From Methylococcaceae bacterium TMED69 (GTDB lineage: Bacteria; Pseudomonadota; Gammaproteobacteria; Ga0077536): a stretch of 52,602 nt of DNA. The stretch is taken from positions 199,983-252,584 of the forward strand of contig NHDW01000006.1 of the NCBI GenBank assembly GCA_002170535.1, written 5' to 3'. The notes beneath the pieces were generated by a model. The model was not told the DNA's origin. It searched no databases and saw only the letters and a list, made by a program, of their open reading frames with translations. The translations under genes and the position numbers were made by a program. Of this stretch, positions 1 to 47,064 are shown piece by piece. The stretch's first letter is position 1; each line of letters begins with the position of its first letter.

Positions 1-410
1 GGAGAAAACTCGACAGCTTTTCTAATAAACTCTTCGTAAATCTGCCGGCCATGGCCCTTACCTCTATTTTCTGGATTGGTAATCCAAGCATTGTCGACAG
101 AATAATACCTTGGATAAAACTTCGGGGGTTTGTCTGATAGCACTCTTTCGTACTTGCCCGTTTCCGGATTCCTCTTTATGTCATAATCCGGTTTTTGTTC
201 GGATAGGTATTTTTCTTTTGCTGCGATAAACTCGGGCATCTGCATAATTGCATCAACATCGTCTTGACATTCGGGGAAGCGGCGGTCTTGTCCACCTTGT
301 GCATAACCTACTCCGGGCATTTCAACTCGAAAGTAGTTGGAGGATCCTTTAAATGTGAAGTTTGCTCTTTCTAAAAGTATCTGTCTTATGTATTGTCGCA
401 ATTGTTTCAT
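1..410 (-). CDS. Tagged GNAT-family acetyltransferase, 3' end beyond window edge
   Basis: Own translation from ATG at 410: MKQLRQYIRQILLERANFTFKGSSNYF...NAWITNPENRGKGHGRQIYEEFIRKAVEFS; RGKGHGRQIYE resembles GNAT motif A; open to the window edge, so absent from the ORF track. Confidence 0.65.
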   Translation of the reverse strand, partial: MKQLRQYIRQILLERANFTFKGSSNYFRVEMPGVGYAQGGQDRRFPECQDDVDAIMQMPEFIAAKEKYLSEQKPDYDIKRNPETGKYERVLSDKPPKFYPRYYSVDNAWITNPENRGKGHGRQIYEEFIRKAVEFS

Positions 411-420
411 GATAAACCTA

Positions 421-942
421 TTAATAATTGGTGGAGATTTCTGGATAATCGTTGGGGTCGATATATCTCACGTTATAAACTTCGACCGCATGCGGGAAAA
501 TTAAAACTTCGAGCTCTTCTATTCCATCGCCGGAATCAAAATCAAAATATTCTACTGCATCGTAGCCGTTAGCTATGGCATAGTCGACTGCAGCCGGTTG
601 GGATCCTAGTTCGTCCCAAAGATTATTAAAAGCTTTCCCGGGGAGAATGTTTAAATCCGAAACCTGCATAACAACTAATGCACCCCCATATTCTGAACTT
701 TTTCCATTTTTGGCCCAAGCCCATATAGCGTGTTCAACAGCAATTTCTTCTTCAACAGTAAATGATATTCCTTTGTTCGACGCGTCACCGGACTTTTTGC
801 CGACCAACAAAGTATCGAAACCTCTTTCTTCTATCTGTTCTCCCGATTCTTCTGAAGTCCCATGATAAACATATTGATAACTCTGAGAATAATTTTCCTT
901 TAGGGTTCTTCTTATATATTGCCGCAAGTGTTTCATTTCCAT
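421..942 (-). CDS. Tagged ADP-ribosyltransferase-like protein
   Basis: N-terminal tag MKHLRQYIRRTLKEN; YVYHGTSEESGEQIEERGF ... NKGISFT ... ELEVLIF pattern typical of ART folds. Confidence 0.5.
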   Translation of the reverse strand: MEMKHLRQYIRRTLKENYSQSYQYVYHGTSEESGEQIEERGFDTLLVGKKSGDASNKGISFTVEEEIAVEHAIWAWAKNGKSSEYGGALVVMQVSDLNILPGKAFNNLWDELGSQPAAVDYAIANGYDAVEYFDFDSGDGIEELEVLIFPHAVEVYNVRYIDPNDYPEISTNY

Positions 943-1295
943 GGACCCGCATGTTTAGTATTAACACAGTTGATTATAGTTTCAGCTGCTGTATACTCTT
1001 TAAATATTTGGGGTTGGTATAAATCATAGTAAACATTTCTTGGTATACCGCCCGGTTTAGTGAACTTTGTCTGATCATCAAACACCAGGTTTTCCTTTTC
1101 GACCCATGCGTGATTGTAAGAATCACCGCTAAATTTGTCCGTTACTTTCCCATGAACAACTTTAAATTTCTTAAGATTATTCCTGTCGGACACTTGCGAT
1201 TTTTTTGCCATGTTAACAGCGAATGGGTAACACTGTCCGGCTGGAATAGTTTCTTCAGTCAGTAGCTGTCTTATGTATTTCCGCAAGTATTTCAT
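933..1295 (-). CDS. Tagged small protein, possible Cys/His/Asp (papain/transglutaminase/deamidase-like) hydrolase
   Basis: Tag MKYLRKYIRQLLTEE; C in GQCYPFAV, H in YNHAWVE, D in VFDDQT. Confidence 0.35.
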   Translation of the reverse strand: MKYLRKYIRQLLTEETIPAGQCYPFAVNMAKKSQVSDRNNLKKFKVVHGKVTDKFSGDSYNHAWVEKENLVFDDQTKFTKPGGIPRNVYYDLYQPQIFKEYTAAETIINCVNTKHAGPWK

Positions 1296-1999
1296 GACAT
1301 CTGACTCGCTTTATAAAGCAGATATTCTTTGCCAGTTTTTTCGTATATCTTATCCATATACATGACGAATTTATCGTATTCACTATCTGGCACTATCAAG
1401 CCTTGAATCTCCCAGTTGTCGATCAAGGCTTCGTTTCCTAATTGACCCTGCGGGTCCCAGTCTTCAGCTGACAAAACAATGTCTTGGGTGTATGCATAAC
1501 TGATACCTTTGTTCGCTCCGGATGAAGCCACTCTTTGTGGAGCCGCTGTTTTATAAGAAGGGGTATAACCGGTCTGCAGAGAATTCATGTCGTTACTCAA
1601 AAGCGTAACATGTCCTGTGATGATCAACCCATACTGTCCGAAGAATTGTGAATTGCCCGGGATTTCGCCAGGCTTGTATGCCATGGCACTTAACTCATCT
1701 CGAGGGTTTACATCTACTTTTATGACATCTGGCGCCAGCATTCCGAGCGCTCTTCTTCCGTATTCAGTCCAGTGCACATATTTTAAGCTGTCTAAATACT
1801 GTCGATCTGCGTGCGCAGCAAAAGCAATTTTCATCTTGCGGCCGGCGGCTGCCATTCTTCTATAAGCTTCGTCGTCTTCGCCTCTTTCAATAAAGTTGTG
1901 ATCGAAGTCTTGACCATATAGATCTGCAAGGAAAGCATCGCGTCTGTTATACGCTACTTCTTTTAATACAGATCGTATGTATTGTCGCAAGTGTTTCAC
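1292..1999 (-). CDS. Tagged protein of unknown function (GTG start proposed)
   Basis: Trimming the ORF to GTG at 1999 gives VKHLRQYIRSVLKEV, aligning with neighbouring tags; start overlaps the upstream stop. Confidence 0.6.
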   Translation of the reverse strand: MKHLRQYIRSVLKEVAYNRRDAFLADLYGQDFDHNFIERGEDDEAYRRMAAAGRKMKIAFAAHADRQYLDSLKYVHWTEYGRRALGMLAPDVIKVDVNPRDELSAMAYKPGEIPGNSQFFGQYGLIITGHVTLLSNDMNSLQTGYTPSYKTAAPQRVASSGANKGISYAYTQDIVLSAEDWDPQGQLGNEALIDNWEIQGLIVPDSEYDKFVMYMDKIYEKTGKEYLLYKASQMS

Positions 2000-2613
2000 T
2001 AGCTTTCCCCCCTGTTGTCCCATTTTCCAGCTGCTTTGAGAGCGTTTATTGTTGTAGGAGGTTTTGTATATCTTTTGCTCAAAGGGGAGTCTACCCAGTC
2101 TGATCCGCGGTCTCTCTCTCCGCCATACATCTGGTGGCGGCCGCCTGCCATTTCTTGGTCACAGTTATCTTCACCTTCTGGTGTAAGGTAATTAAATGGA
2201 TCATCTAACTGGTGAGCAGTAACATCTGTTCTGTTGTTAAGATAATAAGCCCAGACCCTTCTTGCATCAGAAGAAACTTCAGACCGATCGGCAATCAAGC
2301 CATTAGCGTTTTGTGTGGCCCATTCAATCGCAATATCATAAAGAAAGGGACCCCATCCTTGGTCGGCAGTAACCATAGCTATTGCCCAAGCTCCGCCGCA
2401 GTTTCCGATTTTGTCTTCATTGTCTATTTCTTCGATACTGATTGTGCCGTAAGGCTTGTGGAACCGGGTTTTGTCGAAACTGGAAGATAGGTTAATATCA
2501 GTTCTGTATCCAAATTCGTCAATCTCAACTTTTACACCTTCTGGTATGTCTTCAATTGTTTTAATCCCTTCCGTCAGAAGTATCTGTCTTATGTATTGTC
2601 GCAAGTGTTTCAT
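1999..2613 (-). CDS. Tagged protein, paralogue of the next gene
   Basis: Tag MKHLRQYIRQILLTEG; shares GNCxGAxAI, GPxxYDxAIE, VWxYYxNNRxDV, LTPExEDNCxQ with 2610-3182. Confidence 0.65.
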   Translation of the reverse strand: MKHLRQYIRQILLTEGIKTIEDIPEGVKVEIDEFGYRTDINLSSSFDKTRFHKPYGTISIEEIDNEDKIGNCGGAWAIAMVTADQGWGPFLYDIAIEWATQNANGLIADRSEVSSDARRVWAYYLNNRTDVTAHQLDDPFNYLTPEGEDNCDQEMAGGRHQMYGGERDRGSDWVDSPLSKRYTKPPTTINALKAAGKWDNRGES

Positions 2614-3182
2614 GTTAGCATTCCCCTCTTACGGAGCTCATCCATTACTGGAGTGTCTGATTTTTTATATACCTTGCTTAGGACAGATTGGTTAAAGTTT
2701 TCTTGACCTTTGTCTCTTAGAGAAGACCTTTGAACGCAGTTATCTTCTTCTTCTGGTGTCAATTGATTATCAAAGTTGTCTGTTTGTACAGTTTCGACGT
2801 CTGGCCTGTTATTATAATAATAGCTCCAAACAGCTTTTGCAGAATCACTAACAGTAAATCTATCTGGCATAAGCCCCAAACCGCCAGTCAATTCAATAGC
2901 AACATCATAAGCTAATGGACCCATACCTGTTTTAGCACTCGAGGCCGTGACTATTGCAGCAGCGCCAGCACAATTTCCGGAGCCAGCAGATGCGGAAGTT
3001 TCATAAGCGACCATGGCAACCCAATTGCGAGGTGAAATTTCAGTAGGTTCCCAAACTGTAACTCTGTCTGGCAAGATCTCTACATAGCCTTTAGCTTTTT
3101 CGAGAGCATCAATCATTGACATGATTTTCGGATTGACTGATTCTGTCAATAGCTCCCTTATGTATTCACGGAGTAATTTCAT
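2610..3182 (-). CDS. Tagged protein, paralogue of 1999-2613
   Basis: Tag MKLLREYIRELLTES; tandem paralogue motifs. Confidence 0.65.
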   Translation of the reverse strand: MKLLREYIRELLTESVNPKIMSMIDALEKAKGYVEILPDRVTVWEPTEISPRNWVAMVAYETSASAGSGNCAGAAAIVTASSAKTGMGPLAYDVAIELTGGLGLMPDRFTVSDSAKAVWSYYYNNRPDVETVQTDNFDNQLTPEEEDNCVQRSSLRDKGQENFNQSVLSKVYKKSDTPVMDELRKRGMLT

Positions 3183-3637
3183 CGTGGTTTCCTCTCCATA
3201 TACCCAAACCTACCAGGAGCAAATCCTAAGGATGAATAAAATCTTGTTAACACTTCATCGTCTGCGGTCGATATATCTCCAAAAGCATCAGGTGTCCCAC
3301 TCAGGATAACGCCGTGCTTGTCGGCAATATCTAAAACTTGTTCCATAGCTATTCGTGCATACCCTTTTTGATAACACGATTCATCCTCACGGCCGGCGGA
3401 GTCTAATGTAGCAATAAAATCCCATCTTGCTATCGGGGTGTCATCATCGCCGAAAGGTGGAACCAACGCAGGGCCAATGACAAATCTAACTTCACACCCA
3501 TCTGGAAAGGAGACCGCCAAAGCACCACCTCGGCGGGATTCGAATCTAGATTCGAGTTCATTGGTGAATAATCTACCAGCATCGGCAGCCTCTGCTAAAA
3601 GAATTTGTCTTATGTATTCGCGGAGTAAATTAGTCAT
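3179..3637 (-). CDS. Tagged GNAT-like acetyltransferase
   Basis: Tag MTNLLREYIRQILLAEA; CYQKGYARIAMEQVLDIADKHGV...FYSSLGFAPG resembles GNAT motifs. Confidence 0.55.
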   Translation of the reverse strand: MTNLLREYIRQILLAEAADAGRLFTNELESRFESRRGGALAVSFPDGCEVRFVIGPALVPPFGDDDTPIARWDFIATLDSAGREDESCYQKGYARIAMEQVLDIADKHGVILSGTPDAFGDISTADDEVLTRFYSSLGFAPGRFGYMERKPR

Positions 3638-4197
3638 TTTCTATGGAATCCTAAAATATCTAACAGTTCCTTTTTGTGTTCATCAGATATCCACCTGGGA
3701 ATCCTAACCGCGGAGAGTGCATCTGAATATTTTTTAATTTGGCGCGGAGATGGGTTGTGCGAAAGATTGTGTATTAGATCTGATATTTTGACAATTCCCG
3801 CTAAAGGATTTGACAATACACTTTGAAGATATTCGACGTACGGAACAGATTTATCATGAGTTAAAAGTTCCAATGCTCGATTTATCTGTATTAAAATTTT
3901 CCTATCGTGTATTGAATTTTGTATCATTTGAAATGCCTCATCTTGCGTGAGATTTCCAACCTTTTCTGCGTCTTCTAGCGTGTCATGCAGCAGAGCCAAC
4001 AGTTGTGCGCCCTGATTCGATGGATAATACCTTTTGGTTATATTGTAAACCTCTAGTGGGTGACTAATATATGGTGTTCCATCTCTTCTTTTCTGACCAT
4101 GGTGTACCAGATAAGCAGTCTGCTTTACATCCTCCACATCCTCTCGAGAAATGTACTCTAATAAAATATGTCTTATAAACGTTCTTATTTTTTCCAT
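3634..4197 (-). CDS. Tagged HD-domain hydrolase, SpoT/MESH1-like
   Basis: AYLVHHGQKRRDGTPYISHPLEVYNI...LLALLHDTLEDAEKVG matches the (p)ppGpp hydrolase HD signature; tag MEKIRTFIRHILLE. Confidence 0.65.
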   Translation of the reverse strand: MEKIRTFIRHILLEYISREDVEDVKQTAYLVHHGQKRRDGTPYISHPLEVYNITKRYYPSNQGAQLLALLHDTLEDAEKVGNLTQDEAFQMIQNSIHDRKILIQINRALELLTHDKSVPYVEYLQSVLSNPLAGIVKISDLIHNLSHNPSPRQIKKYSDALSAVRIPRWISDEHKKELLDILGFHRK

Positions 4198-4209: not shown

Positions 4210-4947
4210 TTATCTTAGAAAATTTTCCATCGCCGGTCTTATCAATTCTATTCTCTCCTGATAATCCTCGTATGTTCCGGAATTATCTACGAATAAAAAA
4301 TTAGAACCAAACAATTCTTCATATAGTTCTTTGTTTCTGTTAACAGATTCCCAGCTTCTTGAAACTGCTTTGTCGTGCAACCTTCTTTTTCCCTTTTCTC
4401 CTCGTTGGAAGTTTCTCTCGAGAGAAATATCTTTAGGAACCGATACATAAACCATCGCGGTGTCATAACCCATTTGCAAATATACAGAGTTTAATTTTGA
4501 TATTTCTCTATAACTTCCTCCGGTTCCGTCGATAATAAAATCCTTTCCTTCTGCACTTAAATGTGCTGCTTTTTGTTTTGCTTGTTTTCTTGCAGTATTA
4601 AATAATTTTGCATTAGTAGACATTGTTGGCCTGAGCTCTGCTCTCTTTTTCTCCAGTTCTGAGACATCTAACCCTTGTTCTTTTCCTGCTTCTAATGCGG
4701 AGACTATATCAAAATATTCTTGGGTAAATGAAGCAATGTCTAAACTTATTCCTGCTTCTTTAAGAAAAGGTTCATACCAATCATCGGGATTTATTATAGA
4801 AAATTGCTCTAATAAACCTAGCTGGTTTAACACGGTAGATTTTCCGGATCCCGGGGCTCCTGCCATAAAGATCATTTTTTTACCCTGGAAAGAGTCTTTT
4901 AACTGCTCCAGTAAAATTATTCTAATATATTCTCTAAGATAGCTCAC
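4210..4947 (-). CDS. Tagged P-loop kinase / zeta-toxin-like protein (GTG start proposed)
   Basis: MIFMAGAPGSGKSTVLNQL Walker A; INPDDWYE; tag VSYLREYIRIILLEQ. Confidence 0.6.
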   Translation of the reverse strand: MSYLREYIRIILLEQLKDSFQGKKMIFMAGAPGSGKSTVLNQLGLLEQFSIINPDDWYEPFLKEAGISLDIASFTQEYFDIVSALEAGKEQGLDVSELEKKRAELRPTMSTNAKLFNTARKQAKQKAAHLSAEGKDFIIDGTGGSYREISKLNSVYLQMGYDTAMVYVSVPKDISLERNFQRGEKGKRRLHDKAVSRSWESVNRNKELYEELFGSNFLFVDNSGTYEDYQERIELIRPAMENFLR

Positions 4948-4949
4948 TA

Positions 4950-5645
4950 TTATCCACCAAAAACCATTTTTACATGTGGAACACCACCTAAAGTTCTTTC
5001 GTACCATCCATCATATTGGCCGATAAACTGAGCACGTGTCTTGGATTTTTGAGCTTCTATCGAAAGATCTTTATAAATTGGGTTTGACGGGTCTTTGAAA
5101 AATGGATGTTCACCATGCCAAATAACATTCGGCTTAGCAATGTAAGCTAGCGCGATGTCTTTATCGGTAATCGCTGGAACTTTTGCTTTCATTGCCATTG
5201 ATGCAGATCTTCCGCTCATTTCTGCCCATGCGTGTCCACTCTTTAATCTCCTAATAGTGTCTGCCTTAGAGTATTCGCTAGCAATAGCAGAACCATCAGT
5301 TGCTGAAAGAGAAAGCTTCATACTCCCAGACTTGGGCTTCATGCCTCTAACAACATCTGGCTCGGGATCCGGGTCAATGTCCCAGACATAAAATGGATCG
5401 TAATCGTTTTGAGATGGATTCATAAGGTCGTCTGGATGCCTGATATCAACATTGCCTCCTAAGTAAGCATATGACTGATCGATCAAGTTAAAGACTTCGT
5501 CTCTTAGTTCATCGTTTTCCGGATTCATTAGATCGTCATAGATCTCTAGTTCTTTGTTTTTTGAGTAACCCGGGAGCTGAGCCATTCTTTTCTCAATTAA
5601 AATCTTTCTAATTAAGTTTCTTAAATTATTTTCAGTGATAATCAT
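4950..5645 (-). CDS. Tagged protein of unknown function
   Basis: Tag MIITENNLRNLIRKILIEKR; long ORF overlapping its neighbour. Confidence 0.6.
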   Translation of the reverse strand: MIITENNLRNLIRKILIEKRMAQLPGYSKNKELEIYDDLMNPENDELRDEVFNLIDQSYAYLGGNVDIRHPDDLMNPSQNDYDPFYVWDIDPDPEPDVVRGMKPKSGSMKLSLSATDGSAIASEYSKADTIRRLKSGHAWAEMSGRSASMAMKAKVPAITDKDIALAYIAKPNVIWHGEHPFFKDPSNPIYKDLSIEAQKSKTRAQFIGQYDGWYERTLGGVPHVKMVFGG

Positions 5646-21202: not shown

Positions 21203-21643
21203 TTAATCCACCTTGATTACCTCAACCGAAAAGTTCAGGTTTTTTCCTGCCAACCTGTGGTTAAAATCCATAACAACCTCATTTTCTCTGTCTTCCTTAA
21301 TTTGCGCCCAGAAATCCTGTTGTGTAGCTCCGTCCTTTCCCCTTACAAATCCGCCGATTGTAAACTCAAATCCCTCTGGAAATTGGGACTTAGGAACTAC
21401 TCTAATTGCTTCATTGTTATATGGCCCATATGCTTTTTCTGGAGGAATGTTAATGTTTGAAGTTTCACCAACCTCTAACCCCACAACTCCTTCGTCAAAG
21501 CCCTTAATAACAGACCCTGTTCCAACAACAAAGGAAAAAGGTTCTCCTCTGTCTCTAGAATTATCAAATTCTGTTCCATCATCTAGTGTTCCAACGTAGT
21601 GGACAAAAACGGTGTTACCATTTTCTACTTTAGTATTGCTCAT
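21203..21643 (-). CDS. FKBP-type peptidyl-prolyl isomerase (SlyD-like)
   Basis: VFVHYVGTLDDGTEFDNSRDRGEPFSFVVGTGSVIKGFDEGVVGLEVGE. Confidence 0.85.
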   Translation of the reverse strand: MSNTKVENGNTVFVHYVGTLDDGTEFDNSRDRGEPFSFVVGTGSVIKGFDEGVVGLEVGETSNINIPPEKAYGPYNNEAIRVVPKSQFPEGFEFTIGGFVRGKDGATQQDFWAQIKEDRENEVVMDFNHRLAGKNLNFSVEVIKVD

Positions 21644-21701
21644 TTTTTCTCCTTTGGCAATTTTTTTTAAAATTCTCAAAAATATTATATCTCAAATATG
21701 G

Positions 21702-22145: not shown

Positions 22146-22872
22146 TACACTTCTCTGGAGCCGATGTTTTATTACTTTTATTATAACCAATAGGTTTTCT
22201 TTGTTCAATCTCGTTTAAATAATTTTTTAATCTTACCTGCGAGCCGTCTATCAAAACATATGTGGCGTGCTCAACCCAGTCTCCAGTGTTGACGTATGTT
22301 CTTATCCTTTCGTTTTCATCAATCCAGATTAAAGCCTCTGGAGAATGTGTGTGACCCATGATAAAAACATCTTTGTCTCCATTGTGTCTCATTATATCTC
22401 TAATGTGTTTAATTCTTTTTTTTCTTGTCTTAAAGAAATCTATAAAAGCATTAGTGTTCCAATTAAGAGCTCTTTCAAACCAATCGCCAATCAGAGCCAC
22501 TATTTTCATCGTAAATCTTTTTTGTAAAAATCCTCCTTCGTATTGGTCTCCATGTTCGACGGCAAAAGTTCTTCCGTTTTCTTCAAATTCATATCTTTTT
22601 GTAAATTTTATATTTCCAATAGAGGCATCAACCCAAGCTTCAAAGGCTCTGTCATGATTTCCTACAACATAAATAATTGGTTTATCAATGATTTGTAATA
22701 CAGAAAGTATTTTTTTAGTATCCTCTGTAAACCTAGGAACTTTAAGAAATTCTATTATATCGCCGGCCAAGATAAGCTCGTCGAAATCCTTTTCCGTTAA
22801 AAGAGATATTAACATATCTTCTCGGGAGAAAGTAGAACCTAAATGTAAATCAGAAATTATTAATCTTTTCAT
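22123..22872 (-). CDS. Calcineurin-like metallophosphoesterase (LpxH-like fold)
   Basis: ISDLHLGS, LAGDIIEF, VVGNHD, MGHTHSPE. Confidence 0.8.
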   Translation of the reverse strand: MKRLIISDLHLGSTFSREDMLISLLTEKDFDELILAGDIIEFLKVPRFTEDTKKILSVLQIIDKPIIYVVGNHDRAFEAWVDASIGNIKFTKRYEFEENGRTFAVEHGDQYEGGFLQKRFTMKIVALIGDWFERALNWNTNAFIDFFKTRKKRIKHIRDIMRHNGDKDVFIMGHTHSPEALIWIDENERIRTYVNTGDWVEHATYVLIDGSQVRLKNYLNEIEQRKPIGYNKSNKTSAPEKCNEFISTK

Positions 22873-23561
22873 ACCAATTCTTTTAATTGCATCAATGATG
22901 AGTCGACAGCAACAGAGCTAGACTCTGGAAAATGCCTAATCCCTATACCTCCTGTGCTTTCGAACATAGAGATATATTTCGCTCTGTCATCTATTAATAC
23001 GCATCTATTATCAGGGAATTGAGGAGGAACTGAACCTTTATCCTTTCTTATAATAACTCTCTCTGAGGGAATTGAGGTGTTTTCTTTGATCCAGTCGTAT
23101 TTTGCTCTAATGCTTTCTTGGTCTACTGGAGCCGACAATATATAGATGTTTTCAAACCCAACTACAGATGCCACCCCTTCTATTAGGGAATCCGCTCCCT
23201 GTGCCTTTGGCAAATTAAACCAATGATCGTAATTTTGAACTACCGGTAAAAATTGATACCTCTTTATTAGCAGTTCCCAATTTGTCATTTCCTCCTTAGC
23301 GTCTTTTTTTATCATCAATTCAGCCATGAAGTTTTTTGTAATTGGAAACACTCTGTCAGAACCTTTGTATTCCTTAACCTTTTTAAGTTTTTTGGCTCTA
23401 GAATTTCTGTATTCAATGTCACCAGAAATATCCCTGTTTAGAGCGTTTACTAATCCTTCTGAAAAATCAACTAAAACTCCGTCCATATCTAAAAAAACCA
23501 AAGTTTTGACCTCGCTTCCCTGGTCCATGTAGTTTCTCCATGATTCCATCAATTGCTTCAT
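22869..23561 (-). CDS. HAD-superfamily phosphatase / 5'-nucleotidase-like, class-C-like tag
   Basis: MKQLMESWRNYMDQ then LVFLDMDGVLVDFSEGL; VLIDDRAKY. Confidence 0.65.
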   Translation of the reverse strand: MKQLMESWRNYMDQGSEVKTLVFLDMDGVLVDFSEGLVNALNRDISGDIEYRNSRAKKLKKVKEYKGSDRVFPITKNFMAELMIKKDAKEEMTNWELLIKRYQFLPVVQNYDHWFNLPKAQGADSLIEGVASVVGFENIYILSAPVDQESIRAKYDWIKENTSIPSERVIIRKDKGSVPPQFPDNRCVLIDDRAKYISMFESTGGIGIRHFPESSSVAVDSSLMQLKELV

Positions 23562-24253
23562 TTATTAAGTCCTGCCAGTCTGTTCCATCTTTCCATAATC
23601 GGATTACCCTGACTATTTGGAATAATAACAGCCCACTTAGGATTATCTACACCGCCCCAAGCTGTGGCCTTTGGTACCTGTTCACTCGGAAACGAAATGC
23701 CTCCAACCTCAGACAGTGCAAACCCGCCGGGAAAAGCGGTTGCAAGAGCATAAAGGTTCCCAGCTTCTTTTGCTGCAGACAACTCTTCATTGTTATCTAC
23801 AAACTCATTCTGCTCCGGAGAAGATCTGGTAGGATCATAAGGAAAAACCAAAACAGTTGTTTCATCTGTTTGAAAATCCTCAACGGATTGAGTTGTGTGG
23901 ACCTCTGCAATAGGAACCGGCACCATTTTTTTCTGAGCTGGATCGAAATCTTCCTTTGTTCCTGGCTTAACAGTTGCATCTGCAAACTGCATTGCAACAT
24001 CAAACGGCGCCACTAGCAAATAACCCCCGCCTGGAAAATTAGCAGGAATTCCACCGCCTCCTTCTGGAATGTCAGCACTGACAAGAAAATCATTAATCAT
24101 ACTGGGAGTAATCCCTCCAGAAAACACAGATCCCTTTCCTGGGCTTCCGTGAGTACCAATGTGATCATATACCATTTTGCTTGAAACTACAATTTTTCCA
24201 TCTTCACGATGAATGGTTGTAAAATTTCCACGGTTTCTAATGTGATTGCTCAT
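23558..24253 (-). CDS. Hypothetical protein with C-terminal ERWNRLAGLNK tag
   Basis: C-terminal motif shared with the ParB-like gene at 51874. Confidence 0.6.
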   Translation of the reverse strand: MSNHIRNRGNFTTIHREDGKIVVSSKMVYDHIGTHGSPGKGSVFSGGITPSMINDFLVSADIPEGGGGIPANFPGGGYLLVAPFDVAMQFADATVKPGTKEDFDPAQKKMVPVPIAEVHTTQSVEDFQTDETTVLVFPYDPTRSSPEQNEFVDNNEELSAAKEAGNLYALATAFPGGFALSEVGGISFPSEQVPKATAWGGVDNPKWAVIIPNSQGNPIMERWNRLAGLNK

Positions 24254-24840
24254 AGGTTTATCTCCTTTCCACCCCGGATGTTGGCTATTGAGTCTCCGGG
24301 ATTACCTGTTAAGTTTGTTAGCGAAATATGAAAAATTCTTCCGGATTCTCTAGGTTCTAATTCTGAGGCCGCTGATACATCTTTTTTGTCTAGACCCGTC
24401 ATTTCATAGAGGTTCGATAAAAATTTATTCATATCTCCTGAATTGACTATTTTTATGTAGGTAGAAATTTTCTCTCCTTCAGATTTAATTCCTAATTCTC
24501 CAAACTCCAAAAATGGAGGAAATAAAGATTTTGATTTTTCAGACTTAAAAAATTTCTTAAGTGCTTTATCTCCCCTCAGGGGAATACCCTTGGAATCGAA
24601 TAAAGATTTTGAATAAATCATTTTTGGAATTGATTGATGAAGAAGAGTTACGTGAAGATTTCTTACTGGCTTCTGACCCGGATAGATCGACACAATTTTT
24701 TCTTGTAGCTCTCTTAGGAAATCATTATCAGATGGTTTAATTTGAATAATACCCGTAAATTTTCTCGGAAGCTCTGAACTAGTTAAAAGAAAAGATCCTT
24801 CGCTCAGAAAACTTTTCCATGTTCCAATGAGGTCCTGCAT
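24250..24840 (-). CDS. Class-C tagged 2H phosphoesterase-like protein
   Basis: Tag MQDLIGTWKSFLSEGS; paired LHVTLLHQ and FHISLTNL motifs. Confidence 0.55.
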   Translation of the reverse strand: MQDLIGTWKSFLSEGSFLLTSSELPRKFTGIIQIKPSDNDFLRELQEKIVSIYPGQKPVRNLHVTLLHQSIPKMIYSKSLFDSKGIPLRGDKALKKFFKSEKSKSLFPPFLEFGELGIKSEGEKISTYIKIVNSGDMNKFLSNLYEMTGLDKKDVSAASELEPRESGRIFHISLTNLTGNPGDSIANIRGGKEINL

Positions 24841-26966: not shown

Positions 26967-27227
26967 CTAATATCTTTTGTTTTTATATTGATTAGGCTGT
27001 ATAACATCTTCTCTTTTAGGAAATTTGTCGCCTAATCTTGGACTAAGATCCTTGCTTTTTGGCTCTATCTCTTTTTTGATCTCTTCCGTTATCTTTCTGT
27101 AAGTAAACATTCCACCTTTCACTACTGCAAAAGCAGCAAGATATATCATAAAGAACAGAAGACATGTTAGAAATATAACTAACACGACCGGTATAATTGG
27201 TTCCCACATATTAATATCTGTATTCAT
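26967..27227 (-). CDS. Small membrane protein
   Basis: [34 protein letters not shown]. Confidence 0.55.
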
Positions 27228-28515
27228 CTGACTTATACGGTCCGAAAATAGGAACATTAATGTATTCTGCTTGGTGAGGCTTTAATGTTTCTAATTTTGC
27301 GTTTATATGATTTAAGTGAAGAGCTGCCACTTCTTCATCCAATGTTTTTGGCAAGACGTAAACCTTGTTTTCGTAATTTTTTGAATTGTGAAACATTTCA
27401 ATTTGGGCCAAAACTTGATTTGTAAAAGAGCAGGACATTACAAAGCTTGGATGACCTGTTGCGCATCCTAAGTTCACTAGTCTTCCTTCTGCTAATAAAA
27501 TTATGTTTTTTCCGGCTACCTCATAGCAGTCGACTTGAGGCTTAATATTTGTTTTTTCGCAATGCGCGTCCAGCCAGGCAACATCAATCTCGTTATCAAA
27601 GTGTCCGATGTTACAAACAATAGTGTTGTCATTCATTTCGCAAAAATGTTCATCTCTGACCACGTCTCGATTTCCTGTAGCTGTTACCACAATGTTTGCT
27701 TCTTTAATTGCGTCTGTCATTCTCATAACCTGAAAGCCATCCATGGCAGCCTGTAGGGCGCAGATCGGATCAATCTCTGTTACAATAACTCTACAACCGG
27801 CTGAAGCAAGCGATGCTGCAGAACCTTTTCCAACATCTCCATATCCTGCAACGACAGCAACCTTACCAGCCATCATGATATCTGTTGCTCTACGAATGGC
27901 ATCTACACAAGATTCCTTGCAGCCATACTTGTTGTCAAATTTTGATTTTGTGACAGAATCATTAACGTTTATTGCGGGAAAAGGAAGAATTTTATCACTC
28001 TCAAATTCTCTTAACCTTAATACTCCAGTCGTAGTCTCTTCTGTTACGCCAATAATATCTCCGCAAATTTCTGGATATTTCTCGATAAGGTGCTTTGTTA
28101 AATCCCCACCATCATCTAATATCATGTTTGGACTAGTCCAATTACCTTCGTGGTTATCAAACTTAATAACTTCGTCTAGGCACCGTTCATAATCATCCTC
28201 TGACATTCCTTTCCAAGCAAAAACAGGAATGTGCTTATTTGCTGTATATGCCGCAGCATGATCTTGGGTTGAAAATATATTGCATGTCATCCAGCGGACA
28301 TCTGCTCCAAGTTCAACAAGGGTGTCAATTAAAACTGCGGTTTGAATTGTCATATGTAAGCAGCCGGCGATCTTTGCACCTTTTAAAGGTTTATCAGCAC
28401 CATATTTCTCTTTTAGAGCTATTAAACCAGGCATTTCAGATTCTGCTAACAAAACTTCTTTTGCTCCCCATTCTGATAGTTTTATATCTTTAATTTTGTA
28501 GTCTTTAAAATCCAT
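27211..28515 (-). CDS. ahcY: S-adenosylhomocysteine hydrolase
   Basis: [34 protein letters not shown], full length 434 aa. Confidence 0.95.
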
Positions 28516-28518
28516 TTT

Positions 28519-31500
28519 TTACTCCTGTTCTAAATGGCTTCTGTATTTTTTAAAAAGTTCATTTCTTTTCTGTAGATCATCTAAATATTCTTTTGGAAGC
28601 TTGGTGATGCCAAAATATTTAGATTCAGAGCTTGCAAAATACCATCCACATATTGCTGCTTTTGGTATCATTGTTAAACCATCTGTTAGTTTAACTTCGT
28701 TTTTTATTCCAAGCCAATCTACAATTTTAATTTTTTGAGTGTGATCCGGGCAAGCTGGGTATCCAGGAGCAGGACGGATTCCTTTGTAAGATTCTGATAT
28801 TAAATCTTTGTTATCAAAGTGTTCCTCGCTTTCAATATATTTCCAGTGTTTTATTCGGACTTGTTGGTGCAACCACTCTGCTGTTGCCTCGGCAAACCTG
28901 TCACCAAGAGATTGAACCATAATGTTTCTATAATCATCTTGCTCGTTTTTGAATTCTTTCGCTTTTTCATCTATTCCGTTTACCCAAATTGCAAATGTTC
29001 CAAGCCAATCTTCTTCGTGTAAAAAATCACTCAAGCTCATATTTTTTGTAGACGATTTTTTTTGCGGCTGGCGTAAAAAATTGAATGTTTTTTCTTTGCC
29101 CTCCCTGTAAACGGTTACGTCCTCGTTGTTCTTCTTACATCTATCAATTGAAAATGAATACGAAATTGAAACTGTTTTCGACAGTTCGTCAATCATTCTA
29201 TTCGCGTCTTCTAATAAGTTTATTCCAACTTCCTCAGAAAGCTGCTTTGGCTTTAGTCCCCAAGTCATTGCAAACGGAACCCAGTCAATATAATCTCTTA
29301 TTTCTTCGATGCTGGCCACGTCACGGTTTATTCCAGTGGATGCTGGTTTGACAGCTTCAGACTCTAGGCGATACCGATTACCGCGAGAAATCTCTAAAGG
29401 AAAGTATTTTCTATTATTAGGCTTTCTTGAATTTCTAATCTTTTCATACTTCTTTATGATTTCTTTAAAAGCTTCGTCGTTTGTGAGAACATTATTTACT
29501 TCAGATACTGCAACGCTAGCGTTTCTAATATACACAGTGTTCTTGTATTTCGGAGCAATCCTTGTAGCAGTATGGACCTTTGATGTCGTTGCTCCGCCTA
29601 TCAATAAAGGAACTGGATAGTTTTCTTTTTCGAGCGCTGCTGCAACTTTTACCATTTCGTCTAGACTAGGAGTAATAAGCCCACTTAACCCGATCGCATC
29701 AACTTTATGACTTATTGCCTCTTCGATTATTTTTTCTGTTGGTACCATAACTCCTAAATCTATAACTTCATATCCGTTGCACTGAAGAACAACACCAACA
29801 ATATTCTTTCCAATATCGTGGACATCCCCTTTTACAGTAGCCATTAATATTTTCCCTCGAGACGCTGACCCTCCATCTTTTTCCATATATGGCTCTAACC
29901 AAGCTACGGCTTTTTTCATAACTCGGGCTGATTTAACTACCTGAGGCAGAAACATTTTTCCAGACCCAAAAAGATCTCCAACTATGTTCATGCCGTCCAT
30001 TAGCGGACCTTCAACTATCTCTATGGCATTAGGATTTTTATTGTAACACTCCTCAACATCTTCTAAAATATATCTGTCAATTCCATTTACCAGAGCGTGT
30101 TCTATTCTTTTCGCGGGTGATTCTGCTCTCCACTCTTCGTTTGTTTTCCTTTCTCCAGATTTTTTACCACTGGTTTCTTGTGCTAATTCTAGCAAGAGTG
30201 AGCTTGCGTCTGGGTTTTTGTTTAGGATTGCATCCTCTACTATTTTTCTGTGTCCCTTGTCAATGCTTTCGTATATTGTTAATTGCCCCGCATTGACTAT
30301 TGCCATATCAAGACCAGCTTTCACGGCATGATACAAGAAAACAGAGTGCATTATTTCCCTTACATAAGGATTTCCTCTAAAAGAGAAAGATAGGTTGGAC
30401 AAACCTCCTGACACTTTGGCTCCTGGAAGTTGTTTCTTTATCCACTCTGTTGCGTTAATAAAGTCTACAGCATAATTGTCGTGTTCTGATATTCCTGTTG
30501 CAATTGCAAATATATTTGGATCAAATATAATGTCGCTTGGAGCAATTCCGTTTTCTACCAATAGCCAATACGCTCTAGAGCATATCTCTTTTTTTCTTTC
30601 GAGGCTGTCCGCTTGCCCACTTTCATCAAAAGCCATTACTACAAAAGCGTGGCCGCATGAGACGATTTCTTTTGCCTGTTCTAGAAAACTTTGTTCTCCC
30701 TCTTTTAAAGAAATTGAATTTACAATTCCCCTCCCCTGGAGCCATCTCATGCATGTTCTTAAAATATCCCATTTAGAAGAATCTACCATAATTGGAACAC
30801 GAGATATCTCTGGTTCAGATGCTATTAATTTTATAAAGTTTAGCATCTCCTCCTTTGAATCAAGAAGTCCGTCATCCATGTTGATGTCTATTATTTGCGC
30901 GCCATTGGCTATCTGTCTTTTCGCTATCTGCAAGGCATCGTCATACCTTTTTTCCTTGATACATTTTCTAAACCTTGATGAGCCAGTAACATTTGTTCTT
31001 TCGCCAATGTTGATGAAATTTTTTCCATCGCAGGAATATTCCTCTAAACCAGATAGCTTTAAGGTTTTTTCAAAAGGAACGCGAGTTGATTTTGGCTGCA
31101 TCTTTTTTACTGTCTTTGCAATTTTCGAAATGTGTTCAGGAGTAGTTCCACAGCAGCCTCCAATAATGTTTAAACCACTGTTTTTAGCCATTTTCCTAAT
31201 CATAGCCGCCATTTCATCGGGAGACTGGTCGTATTCTCCTAGCTCATTGGGCAAACCAGCGTTTGGATGTGCTGAAATGGCACATGAGCTTACTTCTGAT
31301 AACCTGGAGACATATGGTGCCATCTGTTCTGTACCTAGAGCGCAATTTAGACCAACCGACACTGGGTTTGCATGTTTGACGGATTGCCAAAATGCCTCTA
31401 CAGTCTGACCAGAAAGCGTCCTTCCAGATGCATCAACTATGGTTCCTGAAATCATAAGAGGAATTGTTTTTGAAATACTTCTAACTGCTTCAATTGCGGC

Positions 31501-32013
31501 TTTTGCGTTCAGAGTATCAAATATTGTTTCAATCATTATTAGGTCACAACCACCCTTTATTAGGTTTTCAGCTGCGGCTCTATAGCTTTTAAAAAGACCA
31601 TTATATGTAATATTTCTAAAAGCGGGATCCAGCACATCTGGAGACATTGACAGGGTCCTTGATGTCGGCCCTAGTACTCCTGCAACCAACGCATCGTATT
31701 TGTTAGCAATAGTTCTTGCCAACTTTGCGGCTTTGTAATTAAGCAAATCTATTGCTTCGTTACTTAGGTCATAATCTTCTGCAGAAACATAATTCGCGTT
31801 AAAAGTATTTGTTTCAATGATATCTGCACCAGCTTTTAAATAGTCCTCGTGAATAGACTTTATTACCTCTGGGCAAGTCAAACAAAGTATATCATTGAAT
31901 CCCTCACAGTTTTTTTCCTCGTACGAGAAAAAGGACGGATCAACTTTTCTCTTTTGTATCTCCGTTCCCATTGCTCCATCGAGTATGTAAATCTTTTTAT
32001 TAAAATCTACCAT
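28519..32013 (-). CDS. metH: Cobalamin-dependent methionine synthase
   Basis: [55 protein letters not shown]; start trimmed to MVDFNKK. Confidence 0.95.
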
Positions 32014-32459
32014 TCTTCTTTTTGACCAACCCAATCTTGAAACTTGTCTTCTCCACCCCTTATTCCCCAGTCTGAGTCGACAGTAAGCTTTGATGATATT
32101 CCACCTCTCGGGTTGCATACTATTACCAGCCTGAGTCGAGTCGGTTCGTATGCGCTCATCATGTCATCGTAAATCACGTTAATGATTCTTTCGTATGAAT
32201 AAATCTGTGACCTAAAGGCAAAGAAGTATTCTTTGAGAGATTTAAGCTCAATAACTTTGTCACCTGGATAAAACGTGATATACAACTGTGCAAAATCTGG
32301 CTGGGCCCTAACCCCTTCAAAAGTAAGTTCCGGAACCTTCATTTTTATTTCATAGGCTTCCCTAGAAGGATTTGGAATTGATTTAAGAATGTGCCTATTT
32401 TTTTGCCAATTTCTTTTCCGTCTATTTCTGCCAATTGGAGGCGTTGTTTCTTCGCTCAT
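32007..32459 (-). CDS. QueF-like (T-fold) protein
   Basis: [32 protein letters not shown]...NPRGGIS; the usual CPVTG Cys is replaced. Confidence 0.7.
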
Positions 32460-32460
32460 T

Positions 32461-33444
32461 TTAACCCCATGTTTGGTTAGTGCCCATGTGACCCCAAGCG
32501 GCGGTCTGTAAGTATTTAGGCTTTTTTAAGTCTAGATGATTAATGATTCCCTGAGGGCTTAGATCATAATCTGTTACGGGAAACTCTTCCCCGTTAACTA
32601 TCATTGTTGCTTCTACCGGTTGGTCATGTCCAATGGCGTACGCAAGATAAACATATACTTGGTTTCCTTCAGGTCTACGATTTAGAGTCTGCAATTTATC
32701 TACGGCAATTCGTCTAGCCATGTAAGCTGCTGATCGATCAACCTTTGTAGGATCCTTACCACTAAATGCTCCTCCCCCTACTGGAATTGCTGGTCCGTAA
32801 TTGTCGATTACGATCTTTCTGCCAGTTAATCCGGCGTCGGCGTCGAATCCTCCAAGATTCCAATCGCCTGCGGGGTTAGCAAAAATCTTTGTTTCCGATG
32901 TATCAAAACTAACGGTGCGGAGCCAACCCTTTATGTATCCTTCCAAGTCTTTTGTTTTTGCCATTTGGAAACTAGCAACCACTGAATCGATTTTATTTCC
33001 GCATAGTGTTACCTGTGTTTTTCCGTCGAAGGGATAAACCTTATAAAGCTGCTTACAAAGCTGGCGCGCTAAATAAAGTTCGTTTGGCACCATCTCTGGA
33101 TTGTCATCGCATGCATATCCGACCATGATTCCTTGATCTCCTGCGCCGCCTGTATCAACTCCTTGAGAGATAAAGTTACTCTGTTTTACAACGTTAACAT
33201 TAACCTTGACAGGTTTTCCATAGGTCTCTCTTACTATTTGCTCTATTGGCAAATCAGCATTAGTAGTTATTTCCCCAGTTACGTTTATTTCTCCGTGACC
33301 TCCCATGGTTTCTACTGCAACCCTAGAGTCGGGATCAAAACCCAAACAGTGGTCAAGTATCGCATCCGAAATAGTGTCACAAATTTTATCCGGATGTTTG
33401 GGAGTTACACATTCTGCAGTTTTGTATTTTCTACTTATCATCAT
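32461..33444 (-). CDS. metK: S-adenosylmethionine synthetase
   Basis: TAECVTPKHPDKICDTISDAILD; GAGDQGIMVGYA; GGGAFSGKDPTKVDRSAAY. Confidence 0.95.
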   Translation of the reverse strand: MMISRKYKTAECVTPKHPDKICDTISDAILDHCLGFDPDSRVAVETMGGHGEINVTGEITTNADLPIEQIVRETYGKPVKVNVNVVKQSNFISQGVDTGGAGDQGIMVGYACDDNPEMVPNELYLARQLCKQLYKVYPFDGKTQVTLCGNKIDSVVASFQMAKTKDLEGYIKGWLRTVSFDTSETKIFANPAGDWNLGGFDADAGLTGRKIVIDNYGPAIPVGGGAFSGKDPTKVDRSAAYMARRIAVDKLQTLNRRPEGNQVYVYLAYAIGHDQPVEATMIVNGEEFPVTDYDLSPQGIINHLDLKKPKYLQTAAWGHMGTNQTWG

Positions 33445-33533
33445 TAATAATTTCCCCATCCGCAGTCACAAGGGTCACATTCGCAAGCCTCGCACGGCTG
33501 GAATAGTTTTTTAATATAGTTTATAATTCTCAT
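33444..33533 (-). CDS. 29-aa Cys-rich microprotein
   Basis: Own translation MRIINYIKKLFQPCEACECDPCDCGWGNY; TAATG overlap with metK. Confidence 0.55.
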   Translation of the reverse strand: MRIINYIKKLFQPCEACECDPCDCGWGNY

Positions 33534-34026: not shown

Positions 34027-34704
34027 TTATTTTTTGCTTGTTTTTATAGATATGTCATATTCTTCTATTTCTTTTATTTTTCCACTACCGTGACAAGAAA
34101 AGCAAATTTTAGATATATGTTTTCCCCTACCCATGCACTGCGAACAGGTTGCAGAAGTTTTAACCATCATCGGGCCGTTCCTTACGAGTTTGTTTACTTT
34201 TCCAGTCCCAAAGCAATCAACACATGTTTTGACTATTTCGCCGCCCCTTCCATCACAAACTTTACAATTTCTCTGAACCCTTACTTTTACGGAAGTCTTT
34301 TTTCCTCCAGAGAACAACTCGTCTATGGACAAACTTAAGTTTATGGTTTTGTTCTTTCTCTCTGGCTTTCTTTCCTCGTGAATTTTAGAAGCCTGATCTC
34401 TCCAACTCGGTTCGAAAGGGTTAAATCCAGCGTTTCTGAAAAGGTCTTCGAAGGATTCGTAAGAATTTAAATTGCCGCCGTAACCCTGAGCGTCGTATTC
34501 ATGACGCTTTTCGGGGTCGCTGAGAACGCTGTAAGCTTCACTCACCTCCTTAAAACGCTCAGCGGCATCCTCGTTATCTGGATTACGATCTGGGTGATAT
34601 TTTTTAGCTAATTCTCGATAAGCATGCTTGATCGATTTATTATCAGAATTTTTATTAACACCCAAGATTGCATAAAAATCTTTCAAAACTCCTCCGAAGA
34701 CCAA
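34027..34704 (-). CDS. DnaJ-like co-chaperone truncated after Zn domain
   Basis: J-domain with [54 protein letters not shown]. Confidence 0.85.
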
Positions 34705-42856: not shown

Positions 42857-43423
42857 TTATCTTTTAAAAGATTTGCGTAACTCCCTTTGTTTCTTTTTTC
42901 TTATTTTTTGGTACTTCTTAATAAGTAAACTAGCAGACATTCTGTTCATTCTTTTGTTGAATGTATATCCATCCAGATGATCGCATTCATGTTGAATTGC
43001 TCCTGCCATTGGCCAGCCAACCTCAAACATCTTTTTTTCACCCTTTTCGTTTTGGTAGTTTACCAAAACATAGCTGCTCCGCTGAACCAGACCCGAGACA
43101 TCTGGAATTGACAAACACGATTCTCGCCACTTGGCCGGGTCACCTGAGGATTCTACTTCGGGATTAATTAAAACTAAAAAGTCACTTTTATAATCGTTTG
43201 CTTCAAAAGCTTCTTCTTCTACCTGAAATAGTCTAGGCTTAATAACAACAACTTGTTTTAAAACCCCGATTTGGTTTGCAGCAAGGCCTGCGCCGTTTGA
43301 AACATTACAAGTATCTATCAGGTCTTTAATTAAATTTTGTGTCTCTTCTCCAAAATCTTCCACCCTTTTTGCCTTTTTAAAAAGCTTTTCGTTGGGCCAC
43401 TCAAGAATCTTTCTATATGCCAT
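42857..43423 (-). CDS. def: Peptide deformylase
   Basis: GAGLAANQIGV, ESCLSIP, QHECDHLDG. Confidence 0.92.
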   Translation of the reverse strand: MAYRKILEWPNEKLFKKAKRVEDFGEETQNLIKDLIDTCNVSNGAGLAANQIGVLKQVVVIKPRLFQVEEEAFEANDYKSDFLVLINPEVESSGDPAKWRESCLSIPDVSGLVQRSSYVLVNYQNEKGEKKMFEVGWPMAGAIQHECDHLDGYTFNKRMNRMSASLLIKKYQKIRKKKQRELRKSFKR

Positions 43424-44428: not shown

Positions 44429-45148
44429 TTAAGATACTTTGTATTGTGGGTTGTTGTCGTCTTCTGTGATACCAAAACGCAATCGAAGAACCTGTTCTTC
44501 CTGAGGCTTTAGTGAACTAAATGCCTCTCTGATCAAGCTCATCATTTTTTTTGCGTCGATTTCCATGTCGATGTTTGGAGAATCTTCATCTTCGATCATA
44601 TCAGCGTAGGTTCGACCTCCTTCAACACCTCCAACTGGAGAGTCAATATTGATAGGCCACTGCATTCCTGTTCTTAGATCTTCGACTTGAGATTCTTTGA
44701 TCCCCAAATAATCTGCCACTTCTGAATTTGATGGCATCTCATTGAATTCCTCTTCATACTCTTTACGGAAATTGTTTATTTTCCAAATCATATGCCGAGA
44801 TCCAGCTGGAAATTTAATATGACCTTGAATCGCCAGGTACCGCCGAATAGACTGTCGAATCCACCAGCACGCGTATGTTGAAAACCTAAACCCCTTCTTG
44901 TGATCGAATCGGTCGACGGCCTTGATCAATCCAATGTTTGCCTCTTGGATGATATCCTCCATAGGAAAACCAGTCTGCTTGTACTTATTTGCAATGGAAA
45001 GTGCTAGCCGTAGATTGCTTGAAATCATAAGATCCCTAGCTTGGTTGTCCCCTTTTTCAATTTTTTGAGCAAGTGTTTTTTCTTGCTGTTTTGTCAAAAG
45101 CTTGAAGCTTCCGACGTCGCCATAATATGCTTTTAGCGTTTCTGACAT
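44429..45148 (-). CDS. Sigma-70 family factor lacking region 4.2
   Basis: DLMISSNLRLALSIANKYKQTGFPMEDIIQEANIGLIKAVDRFDHKKGFRFSTYACWWIRQSIRR; ends LRLRFGITEDDNNPQYKVS. Confidence 0.88.
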   Translation of the reverse strand: MSETLKAYYGDVGSFKLLTKQQEKTLAQKIEKGDNQARDLMISSNLRLALSIANKYKQTGFPMEDIIQEANIGLIKAVDRFDHKKGFRFSTYACWWIRQSIRRYLAIQGHIKFPAGSRHMIWKINNFRKEYEEEFNEMPSNSEVADYLGIKESQVEDLRTGMQWPINIDSPVGGVEGGRTYADMIEDEDSPNIDMEIDAKKMMSLIREAFSSLKPQEEQVLRLRFGITEDDNNPQYKVS

Positions 45149-45444: not shown

Positions 45445-47064
45445 CTATTCATATAAGTCAGTTTCATGTTTTGTGTTATCTTCTATTGAGTGCATTGCGC
45501 ATGCAACAGACAAAAGATTGTCTGCAGCGGATGTGGCGTGCTTTAAAGCAGAAACCACAACAAGTGTCGGATCAATTACTCCTTGATCAAAAAGATTGAC
45601 CCAAACGTTTTTTCTTGCATCAAAACCCTTAGGGCTTTTGCAAGACAAAGTTTTTTCAACAATAATGTCAGGAACTTCACCAGCATTTTTTGAAATTTGC
45701 CTGATTGGCTCCTCACAAGCTTTTTTTACTATGTTAAATCCTATTAATTCATCTCCCGTTAATTTTGCTTTTATTGACTTTGAAACTCTTAGCAATGCAG
45801 AACCGCCACCGTCTAGTATTCCGGAATTAACTGCTGCTCTAGTAGCATAAAGAGCATCTTCCACTCTGTCTTTTCTTTCTCTTAATTCTGCCTCTGTGGA
45901 TCCTCCCACTCTTAAAACTGCTACACCACCTGACAACCTTGACAGCCTGCGGCGGTGCATTGCTTCCTCATCTGTTGTCATTACAGAATTTTCTAAATTT
46001 GACTTTATTTCTTTGCAGTGTTTCTTGAGCTCACTTTTTTCTACATTTGATCCAACAATTATTGTTTCATTCCTACTAATAATTATTTTTTCACACTTTC
46101 CTAAATCATCTATTTGTATGGTTGTCAAATCAGAACTATTTGAAGGTGTTATAACTTTTGTTCCAAGAAGTTTTGCCAAATCATCCATTGCATAAATCCT
46201 TCCCTGTCCAAACTCTGGAGCTCGGATTACACATATATTAAGAATACCTTTTTGACTATTTGCTGTACAGGCATTAAGTGCCTCTCCGTCGACATCCTCT
46301 GCAATAATTAAAAATGGCCTATTTGCTTGGTGTACTTTTTCCAAAATTGGAATCAGATCCTTAATTGTAGAAAAACTTCTATTTGCTAATAATACAACAG
46401 GTTTTGCCATTATACAAGAATTTCTGGATTTATCATTGATGAAATATGGAGATAAAAATCCTCTGTTAATTCTTGTCCCTTCTACTTTGAGAAGAGATGT
46501 TTTAAAACCTTTTGCCTCTTCTACGGTAATAGTTCCATCTCGGCCAACTGCTTCCATTGCCTCGCAAATAAGTTTTCCAATTTCGGATTCGCCATTAGCA
46601 CTAATAGTTCCAACTTGAATAATCTCCTCATTGGATTTTACCTCTTTTGATCGCTGATACAGCCCATCAATTATTAAACCAGAAGCGTGCTTTATACCGT
46701 TTCTCACTTTTACTGGATTATTGCCGGCATTAATTGCACGGAGACCATGGGAAAATATAGAGTGAGCCAAAACAGTAGCTGTTGTAGTTCCATCTCCTGC
46801 TATGTCAGCAGCGCCTTGGGCTGCTTCCTTTACTAATTGAACACCCAAATTTTCCATTTTGTCTGGAAGGTTTACCGCTTTTGCCACGGTAACTCCATCT
46901 TTTGTTAGAATAGGTACCTGACCAGGCCTTTCAATAACAACATTAAGTCCTCCAGGACCCATTGTGACACTAACAGCCTGACTCAGCTGCCTCACTCCCT
47001 TTAGTAAGACCTCTCTGGCTTCCTGATCAAATACAAGATTTTTAGGTTTTATATTAAAATCCAT
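45445..47064 (-). CDS. groEL: Cpn60 chaperonin (GroEL family)
   Basis: VTMGPGGLNVVIE, KDGVTVAKAV, AGDGTTTATVLA, 539 aa; no GGM tail. Confidence 0.93.
   Translation of the reverse strand: MDFNIKPKNLVFDQEAREVLLKGVRQLSQAVSVTMGPGGLNVVIERPGQVPILTKDGVTVAKAVNLPDKMENLGVQLVKEAAQGAADIAGDGTTTATVLAHSIFSHGLRAINAGNNPVKVRNGIKHASGLIIDGLYQRSKEVKSNEEIIQVGTISANGESEIGKLICEAMEAVGRDGTITVEEAKGFKTSLLKVEGTRINRGFLSPYFINDKSRNSCIMAKPVVLLANRSFSTIKDLIPILEKVHQANRPFLIIAEDVDGEALNACTANSQKGILNICVIRAPEFGQGRIYAMDDLAKLLGTKVITPSNSSDLTTIQIDDLGKCEKIIISRNETIIVGSNVEKSELKKHCKEIKSNLENSVMTTDEEAMHRRRLSRLSGGVAVLRVGGSTEAELRERKDRVEDALYATRAAVNSGILDGGGSALLRVSKSIKAKLTGDELIGFNIVKKACEEPIRQISKNAGEVPDIIVEKTLSCKSPKGFDARKNVWVNLFDQGVIDPTLVVVSALKHATSAADNLLSVACAMHSIEDNTKHETDLYE

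Follow-up and report, generated by a model that had tools for sequence, protein, structure and literature searches.

The locus described here raises the question of why a small predicted hydrolase should begin with a short peptide tag, and whether the two together could form a cargo that a phage delivers to its host. The window analyzed, a stretch of 52,602 nucleotides, corresponds to bases 199,983–252,584 of C5, a contig of 305,838 bp assigned to a 1.97-Mb bacterial bin. An earlier note had placed an open reading frame (ORF) with the HD signature LLHDTLEDA behind a class-A tag at 3634–4197, and this assignment is exact: the ORF lies on the minus strand, starts with an ATG at 4197 and encodes 187 aa. 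Its translation contains both HD-region motifs, HHGQKRRDGTPYISHPLEV and LLHDTLEDA, and starts with the tag MEKIRTFIRHILLE, followed by YISREDVEDVKQTAYLVHHGQKRRDGTPYISHPLEV...LLHDTLEDA...VKISDLIHNL. The gene of a tagged kinase ends 12 bp upstream of it, and the gene encoding the MTNLLREYIRQILLAE protein overlaps it by 4 nt downstream, a spacing as in an operon (Table 1).

Table 1. Features of the tagged gene row, in window coordinates unless marked C5
Feature	Position	Strand	Basis
Predicted tagged small alarmone hydrolase (SAH), 187 aa	3634..4197	-	ORF; HD/RSH matches; AlphaFold; Foldseek to SAHs
N-terminal tag MEKIRTFIRHILLE, 14 residues	4156..4197	-	Sequence; array-wide motif; homolog tags
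(L/I)xE in SAH tag, L12-L13-E14, predicted cut after E14	within 4156..4197	-	gp21 motif L/I-X-E (PMC9026906)
HD catalytic core: H32, R37/R38, H46, H71-D72, E75-D76, K137, D140, H143-N144	3760..4110	-	26-sequence alignment
Tagged P-loop kinase (AAA_33/Zeta-like), tag ...SYLREYIRIILLE	4210..5007	-	Domain match
Tagged protein MIITENNLRNLIRKILIE	4950..5645	-	ORF
Tagged protein MTNLLREYIRQILLAE, GNAT-like by eye	3179..3637	-	ORF; weak phrog_14082 match
Tagged protein MKLLREYIRELLTE	2610..3182	-	ORF; tag motif
Tagged protein MKHLRQYIRQILLTE	1999..2613	-	ORF; tag motif
Tagged protein VKHLRQYIRSVLKE	1292..2023	-	ORF; tag motif
Tagged protein MKYLRKYIRQLLTE	933..1295	-	ORF; tag motif
Tagged protein MKHLRQYIRRTLKE, ADP-ribosyltransferase-like body by eye only	421..942	-	ORF; tag motif
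Tagged GNAT-like protein MKQLRQYIRQILLE, cut by window start	1..410 (C5:199928-200392)	-	ORF on contig

The ORF barely passes the Pfam HD profile (PF01966; 22.8 bits against a cut-off of 22) and falls under that of HD_4 (PF13328; 20.6 bits, cut-off 27.2), while PHROG_990, annotated as 'metal-dependent phosphohydrolase', matches at 2e-26. A PDB sequence search returned only RSH or small alarmone hydrolase (SAH) chains. The AlphaFold model, built on 26 homologs, has a mean pLDDT of 92.7, and its top 25 Foldseek matches are all RSH/SAH proteins, led by the (p)ppApp hydrolase 7SMG and followed by Pseudomonas aeruginosa SAH, Thermus Rel and RelH. Other kinds of HD enzyme (dNTPase, YpgQ-like) were rejected, as they rank far below RSH in the fold search. 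In an alignment of 26 sequences, comprising the query and homologs 35–65% identical to it, H32, Q35, R37, R38, H46, H71, D72, E75, D76, K137, D140, H143 and N144 are invariant in 26/26. The metal-binding residues of the HD domain (H46, H71, D72 and D140), the ED dyad (E75/D76), the basic pair (R37/R38) and the HN motif (H143/N144) are thus all retained. Matches are confined to the HD/RSH-hydrolase region, with no synthetase or TGS/ACT domain, indicating that the ORF consists of the hydrolase domain alone. From sequence and model together, we conclude that the product is by family a small alarmone hydrolase, and hence a predicted enzyme.

These results bear out the proposal of an alarmone-hydrolase-type HD enzyme, and the loss of catalytic residues that could have spoken against it was sought in the alignment and found at no position. 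The earlier label 'SpoT/MESH1-like' stands with respect to the RSH/SAH family; its MESH1 part does not. In the structure prediction, 7SMG and then bacterial SAHs are closer in fold than animal MESH1, and SpoT/Rel chains rank above MESH1 by sequence, so the protein, as far as alignment and model indicate, is better described as an SAH. Like the known SAHs 7SMG (from B. caccae), 6YVC (P. aeruginosa), 7QOC (C. glutamicum RelH) and 3NR1 (human MESH1), it is a stand-alone HD domain (approximately 150–180 aa in these enzymes), and it shares with them all RSH hydrolase motifs and the fold (TM 0.57–0.73 for the bacterial ones). It differs in its low identity to characterized enzymes (approximately 16–25%), in an apparently removable, putative capsid tag, and in its position within an array of candidate cargo genes of a jumbo phage.

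Because of this low identity, the substrate is not predictable; candidates could include (p)ppGpp, (p)ppApp, pyrophosphorylated tRNA or NADPH. The HD domain might then have a different 3'-phosphorylated nucleotide as its substrate (NADPH, CoA or a defense signal, for example), with delivery by the tag still holding. Mesh1 and a Xanthomonas SAH hydrolyze NADPH and SAH promiscuity is documented (PMC9765508), MESH1 is reported to be a CoA phosphatase (PMC13221220), and the distance from characterized enzymes leaves room for such a shift. We nevertheless regard it as unlikely, given that no residue of the full RSH motif set varies and that a (p)ppApp hydrolase is the closest match in fold.

Contig C5 also carries genes for gp23, a capsid protein (2.9e-62), and for a prohead protease of the gp21/S77 type (3.4e-26), and is, judged by its sequence, a T4-like jumbo phage of approximately 280 kb. 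This size follows from the contig ends, since 25,658 bp are shared between C5:1–25658 and C5:280181–305838 at 99.8% identity; this reflects either a genome with circular permutation or terminal redundancy, or an assembly overlap. A bin-mate of C5 is bacterial, as its bL19 protein indicates, and an archaeal bin was ruled out on this basis. No alarmone synthetase was detected in the bin, yet one is present in 28/30 relatives; an RSH-less lineage was therefore rejected, the absence probably reflecting incompleteness. T4 late-promoter octamers are not enriched anywhere in C5. Inspection by eye also revealed a row of genes for S-adenosylhomocysteine hydrolase, methionine synthase MetH and SAM synthetase (window 27211–33459, minus strand), resembling a nearly full methyl cycle in a phage, as well as GroEL, DnaJ, an FKBP-type isomerase, peptide deformylase and a sigma-70-like factor (window 45445–47064, 34027–34704, 21203–21679, 42857–43423 and 44429–45148).

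The tag of the hydrolase belongs to a class-A array of 16 contiguous genes whose products start with MKxLRxYIRxxLxE (C5:194,148–204,989), spanning the window up to 5007 and a further 5.8 kb upstream. A second class, absent from the earlier note, occupies the adjoining approximately 10 kb upstream of the window (C5:183,751–194,061), where 19 detected short genes lie in tandem with class-B N-termini of the form MKIT(K/R)xQLRxIIxE (MKITKRQLRRIIKEE-type). Within their first 60 aa, 15/391 predicted C5 ORFs contain LRxYIRxxLxE, the core of the class-A motif, compared with 0/1817 internal 60-aa blocks, so the class-A tag is not a product of chance. The tags measure 14–16 aa, and at least 30 other C5 genes carry one on differing bodies. 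These bodies are unrelated and comprise a PAP2 phosphatase, the P-loop kinase, the SAH and many uncharacterized proteins; a Pfam search with the MKHLRQYIRRTLKE protein gave no match. Inspection showed that 15/16 tags of class A and 19/19 of class B retain (L/I)xE, the tag of the PAP2-type phosphatase (C5:195658–196209) being the sole class-A exception.

Further tag-like peptides were observed in the window and elsewhere. A third, T4-CTS-like class is represented by the N-termini MKQLMESWRNYMDQG (22869–23561, minus strand) and MQDLIGTWKSFLSEG (24250–24840, minus strand), and also occurs on the hydrolase homologs L202 and L209 (ITDNWQKYLRE). The C-terminal peptides MERWNRLAGLNK (23558–24253, minus strand) and LERWNKLAGVLKD (51874–52560, minus strand) resemble each other and look like C-terminal versions of this W-containing class. 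The class-B tag is widespread, with many viral contigs among the matches listed in the scan.

Repeated gene starts could also arise if the tags acted mainly at the DNA level, as homologous 5' ends for recombination or cassette exchange with no role in the protein. Codons in the tags are indeed identical somewhat more often (0.57–0.60) than predicted from codon usage (0.41–0.42). Nevertheless, at positions with the same residue, approximately 40% of codon pairs are synonymous but not identical, which implies selection on the peptide and not on DNA alone; together with the existence of C-terminal tags and of several sequence classes, this renders the DNA-level explanation very improbable.

The relatives of the hydrolase indicate how the tag behaves in other phages. 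Single-sequence searches yielded two loci in one case and none in the other, and a tag-blind search with an alignment of the HD catalytic core found relatives that they had missed, giving 28 distinct viral homologs above 130 bits. Inspection revealed an N-terminal tag in 19 of them, a C-terminal tag only in seven, and no clear tag in two (L203 and L194). A strict tag motif, written as a regular expression, matched 17/28 homologs against 0.66 expected by shuffling, and it matched 0/27 more distant viral SAHs and 1/61 bacterial SAHs, the distant bacterial controls coming from a second search of genome contigs after a first had found nothing. Neighboring ORFs were tagged in 30/411 cases in the family compared with 0/367 and 0/707 in the controls. 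Of the two nearest homologs, L003/L192 has a class-A tag and the same kinase–hydrolase order, and L002/L181 has a class-B tag and different neighbors, with VxE in place of (L/I)xE in the N-terminal tag of L181. The enzyme tree requires at least six changes of tag class, and the fully supported clade of the query mixes classes A and B. The tag, which the earlier note had introduced, is thus real, recurrent and modular, and it occurs in phages that encode a T4-type protease predicted to remove it. As read from these sequences, it is a movable module, found on at least 30 other genes of this phage; among the hydrolase relatives, both its class and the terminus that it occupies vary.

Several homologous loci show additional features. 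In L086:11417–13276 and L199:3320–5179, a single long ORF encodes three units of tag plus body, the SAH being the central one, possibly a polyprotein cut at internal tags; by eye, a look-alike of the body of the MIITENNLRNLIRKILIE protein follows the hydrolase in these fused ORFs. LxE precedes the C-terminal tags, but relatives that lack a C-terminal tag have it too, and it was therefore dropped as proof of cleavage. Two further peptides that resemble T4-type targeting sequences, MKTYSEFSGELEES and MDSFRDFVFES, belong to ORFs in the vicinity of a hydrolase with 35% identity in L020 (Nitratidesulfovibrio phage SRB7757). Homologs of the neighboring kinase in cultured marine T4-like phages begin with MKTFAELQEG (Methylophilales phage Melnitz) and MIPFILKEG (Pelagibacter phage HTVC008M); by eye, both starts resemble targeting peptides of the T4 type, with (L/I)xE at the end.

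Whether the tag relates to the capsid at all was weighed against its physical character. The tags are basic amphipathic helices of a generic type, and AlphaFold runs the SAH tag as a helix on into the body. These properties would suit a localization or oligomerization helix directed to a phage compartment, a membrane or the ribosome, in which case the SAH would be an ordinary cytoplasmic phage enzyme. Such a helix would not readily account for (L/I)xE in nearly all tags or for tags at either end. Moreover, S77 and gp23 are both encoded in 15/16 family contigs of at least 100 kb, a count that does not represent 15 independent events because the phages and their gp23 and protease genes are related, and untagged SAHs occur in other phages. 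We therefore judge a role unconnected with the capsid to be rather improbable.

A connection with head assembly is also suggested by the head cluster of C5, where tag-like segments are present in one scaffold-like ORF and in two small neighbors of gp21; these ORFs contain 3.4–4.4 (L/I)xE per 100 aa, about three times the genome-wide 1.27. That these core-like ORFs have the same motif would also fit a tag serving only to bring proteins to the prohead core or assembly site, with the hydrolase acting late in the infected cell and not reaching the next host. Degradation without delivery is the fate of gp22, gp67 and gp68 in the T4 core (PMC9958956). Destroying core proteins, however, makes little sense for more than 30 genes, several of which have folded enzyme bodies, and T4 internal proteins and Alt, with their short removable N-terminal peptides, remain in the virion (PMC9958956; PMC9026906). 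A tag limited to morphogenesis consequently seems improbable to us.

We instead consider it probable that the SAH is made by a T4-like jumbo phage, packaged into the head by means of its tag, cleaved free and ejected against an alarmone or toxSAS response. In T4, a CTS of 10–19 residues brings internal proteins into the prohead core and the mature proteins enter the host (PMC9958956; PMC9026906), the CTS being removed by gp21 at L/I-X-E (PMC9026906). Among these proteins, IPI, which blocks a restriction enzyme, and Alt, which modifies RNA polymerase (PMC9958956; PMC9026906), set precedents for a counter-defense protein and an enzyme as cargo. By analogy, the 14-residue basic amphipathic tag would draw the SAH into the prohead core, and the phage gp21-type protease, encoded alongside the cleavage motif, would cut after E14 and free it. 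Like IPI and Alt, the SAH may then be ejected along with the DNA. Its HD site, whose residues are in place, could take the 3'-pyrophosphate off an alarmone or a toxSAS-modified substrate, e.g. tRNA, and this action would come before the host slows its growth or aborts the infection. Host defenses of the alarmone type are represented by CapRel, which is triggered by a capsid protein (PMC9712102), and the SAH of phage SSU5 strips the toxSAS modification from tRNA (PMC11559606). Given the T4 parts list, such defenses and tRNA repair by a phage SAH, a packaged antidote is the most economical reading.

The resemblance to T4 IPI, IPII, IPIII and Alt thus comprises a short N-terminal peptide, (L/I)xE at its end, a gp21-type protease and gp23 in the genome. 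The tag sequence appears to differ from the T4 CTS, and the system differs from that of T4 in dozens of tandem tagged genes of several classes, in tags at the C-terminus and in a cargo that includes an alarmone hydrolase. The identical N-termini on the diverged head proteins gp53 and gp54 of the phiKZ-like phage SPN3US, processed by a gp21 homolog, offer a further parallel; they differ in belonging to another phage group, in their AXE/SXE sites and long propeptides, and in having no alarmone hydrolase (PMC5694885). PaSpo SAH of the Salmonella phage SSU5 is likewise phage-encoded and undoes toxSAS tRNA pyrophosphorylation, and the available portion of its description reports no capsid tag (PMC11559606).

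SAHs are annotated in other phages as well (PMC12846349), and jumbo-phage alarmone hydrolases had already been proposed as a counter-defense by Iyer et al. (PMC7824862). The HD-alarmone phosphodiesterases of that 2021 study and PHROG_990 are the same kind of enzyme, predicted to counter nucleotide-based defense, and the text consulted makes no link to capsid-targeting tags or arrays (PMC7824862). In the open literature, with subscription papers and preprints mostly outside it, we found no paper connecting alarmone hydrolases with capsid-targeting tags. Within the literature searched, a putative capsid tag on an alarmone hydrolase, movable between its ends, therefore appears to be new.

More tentatively, and with somewhat less than even confidence, we envisage a clade of T4-like jumbo phages with a modular virion delivery system, in which interchangeable N- and C-terminal capsid-targeting tags of several classes, removed by the gp21-type protease, would mark dozens of tandem cargoes, an anti-alarmone enzyme being widely kept among them to disarm the host before phage expression. 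If true, the packaging of internal proteins known from T4 would have expanded into a wide-ranging means of delivery, and alarmone or toxSAS signaling in environmental bacteria would be important enough for phages to pre-load an antidote. The tag with its (L/I)xE would then be a readable code that predicts virion cargo among the uncharacterized proteins of jumbo phages, and the tagged genes would furnish a testable list of candidate counter-defense proteins. The cultured relatives Melnitz and HTVC008M offer a way to test the packaging idea.
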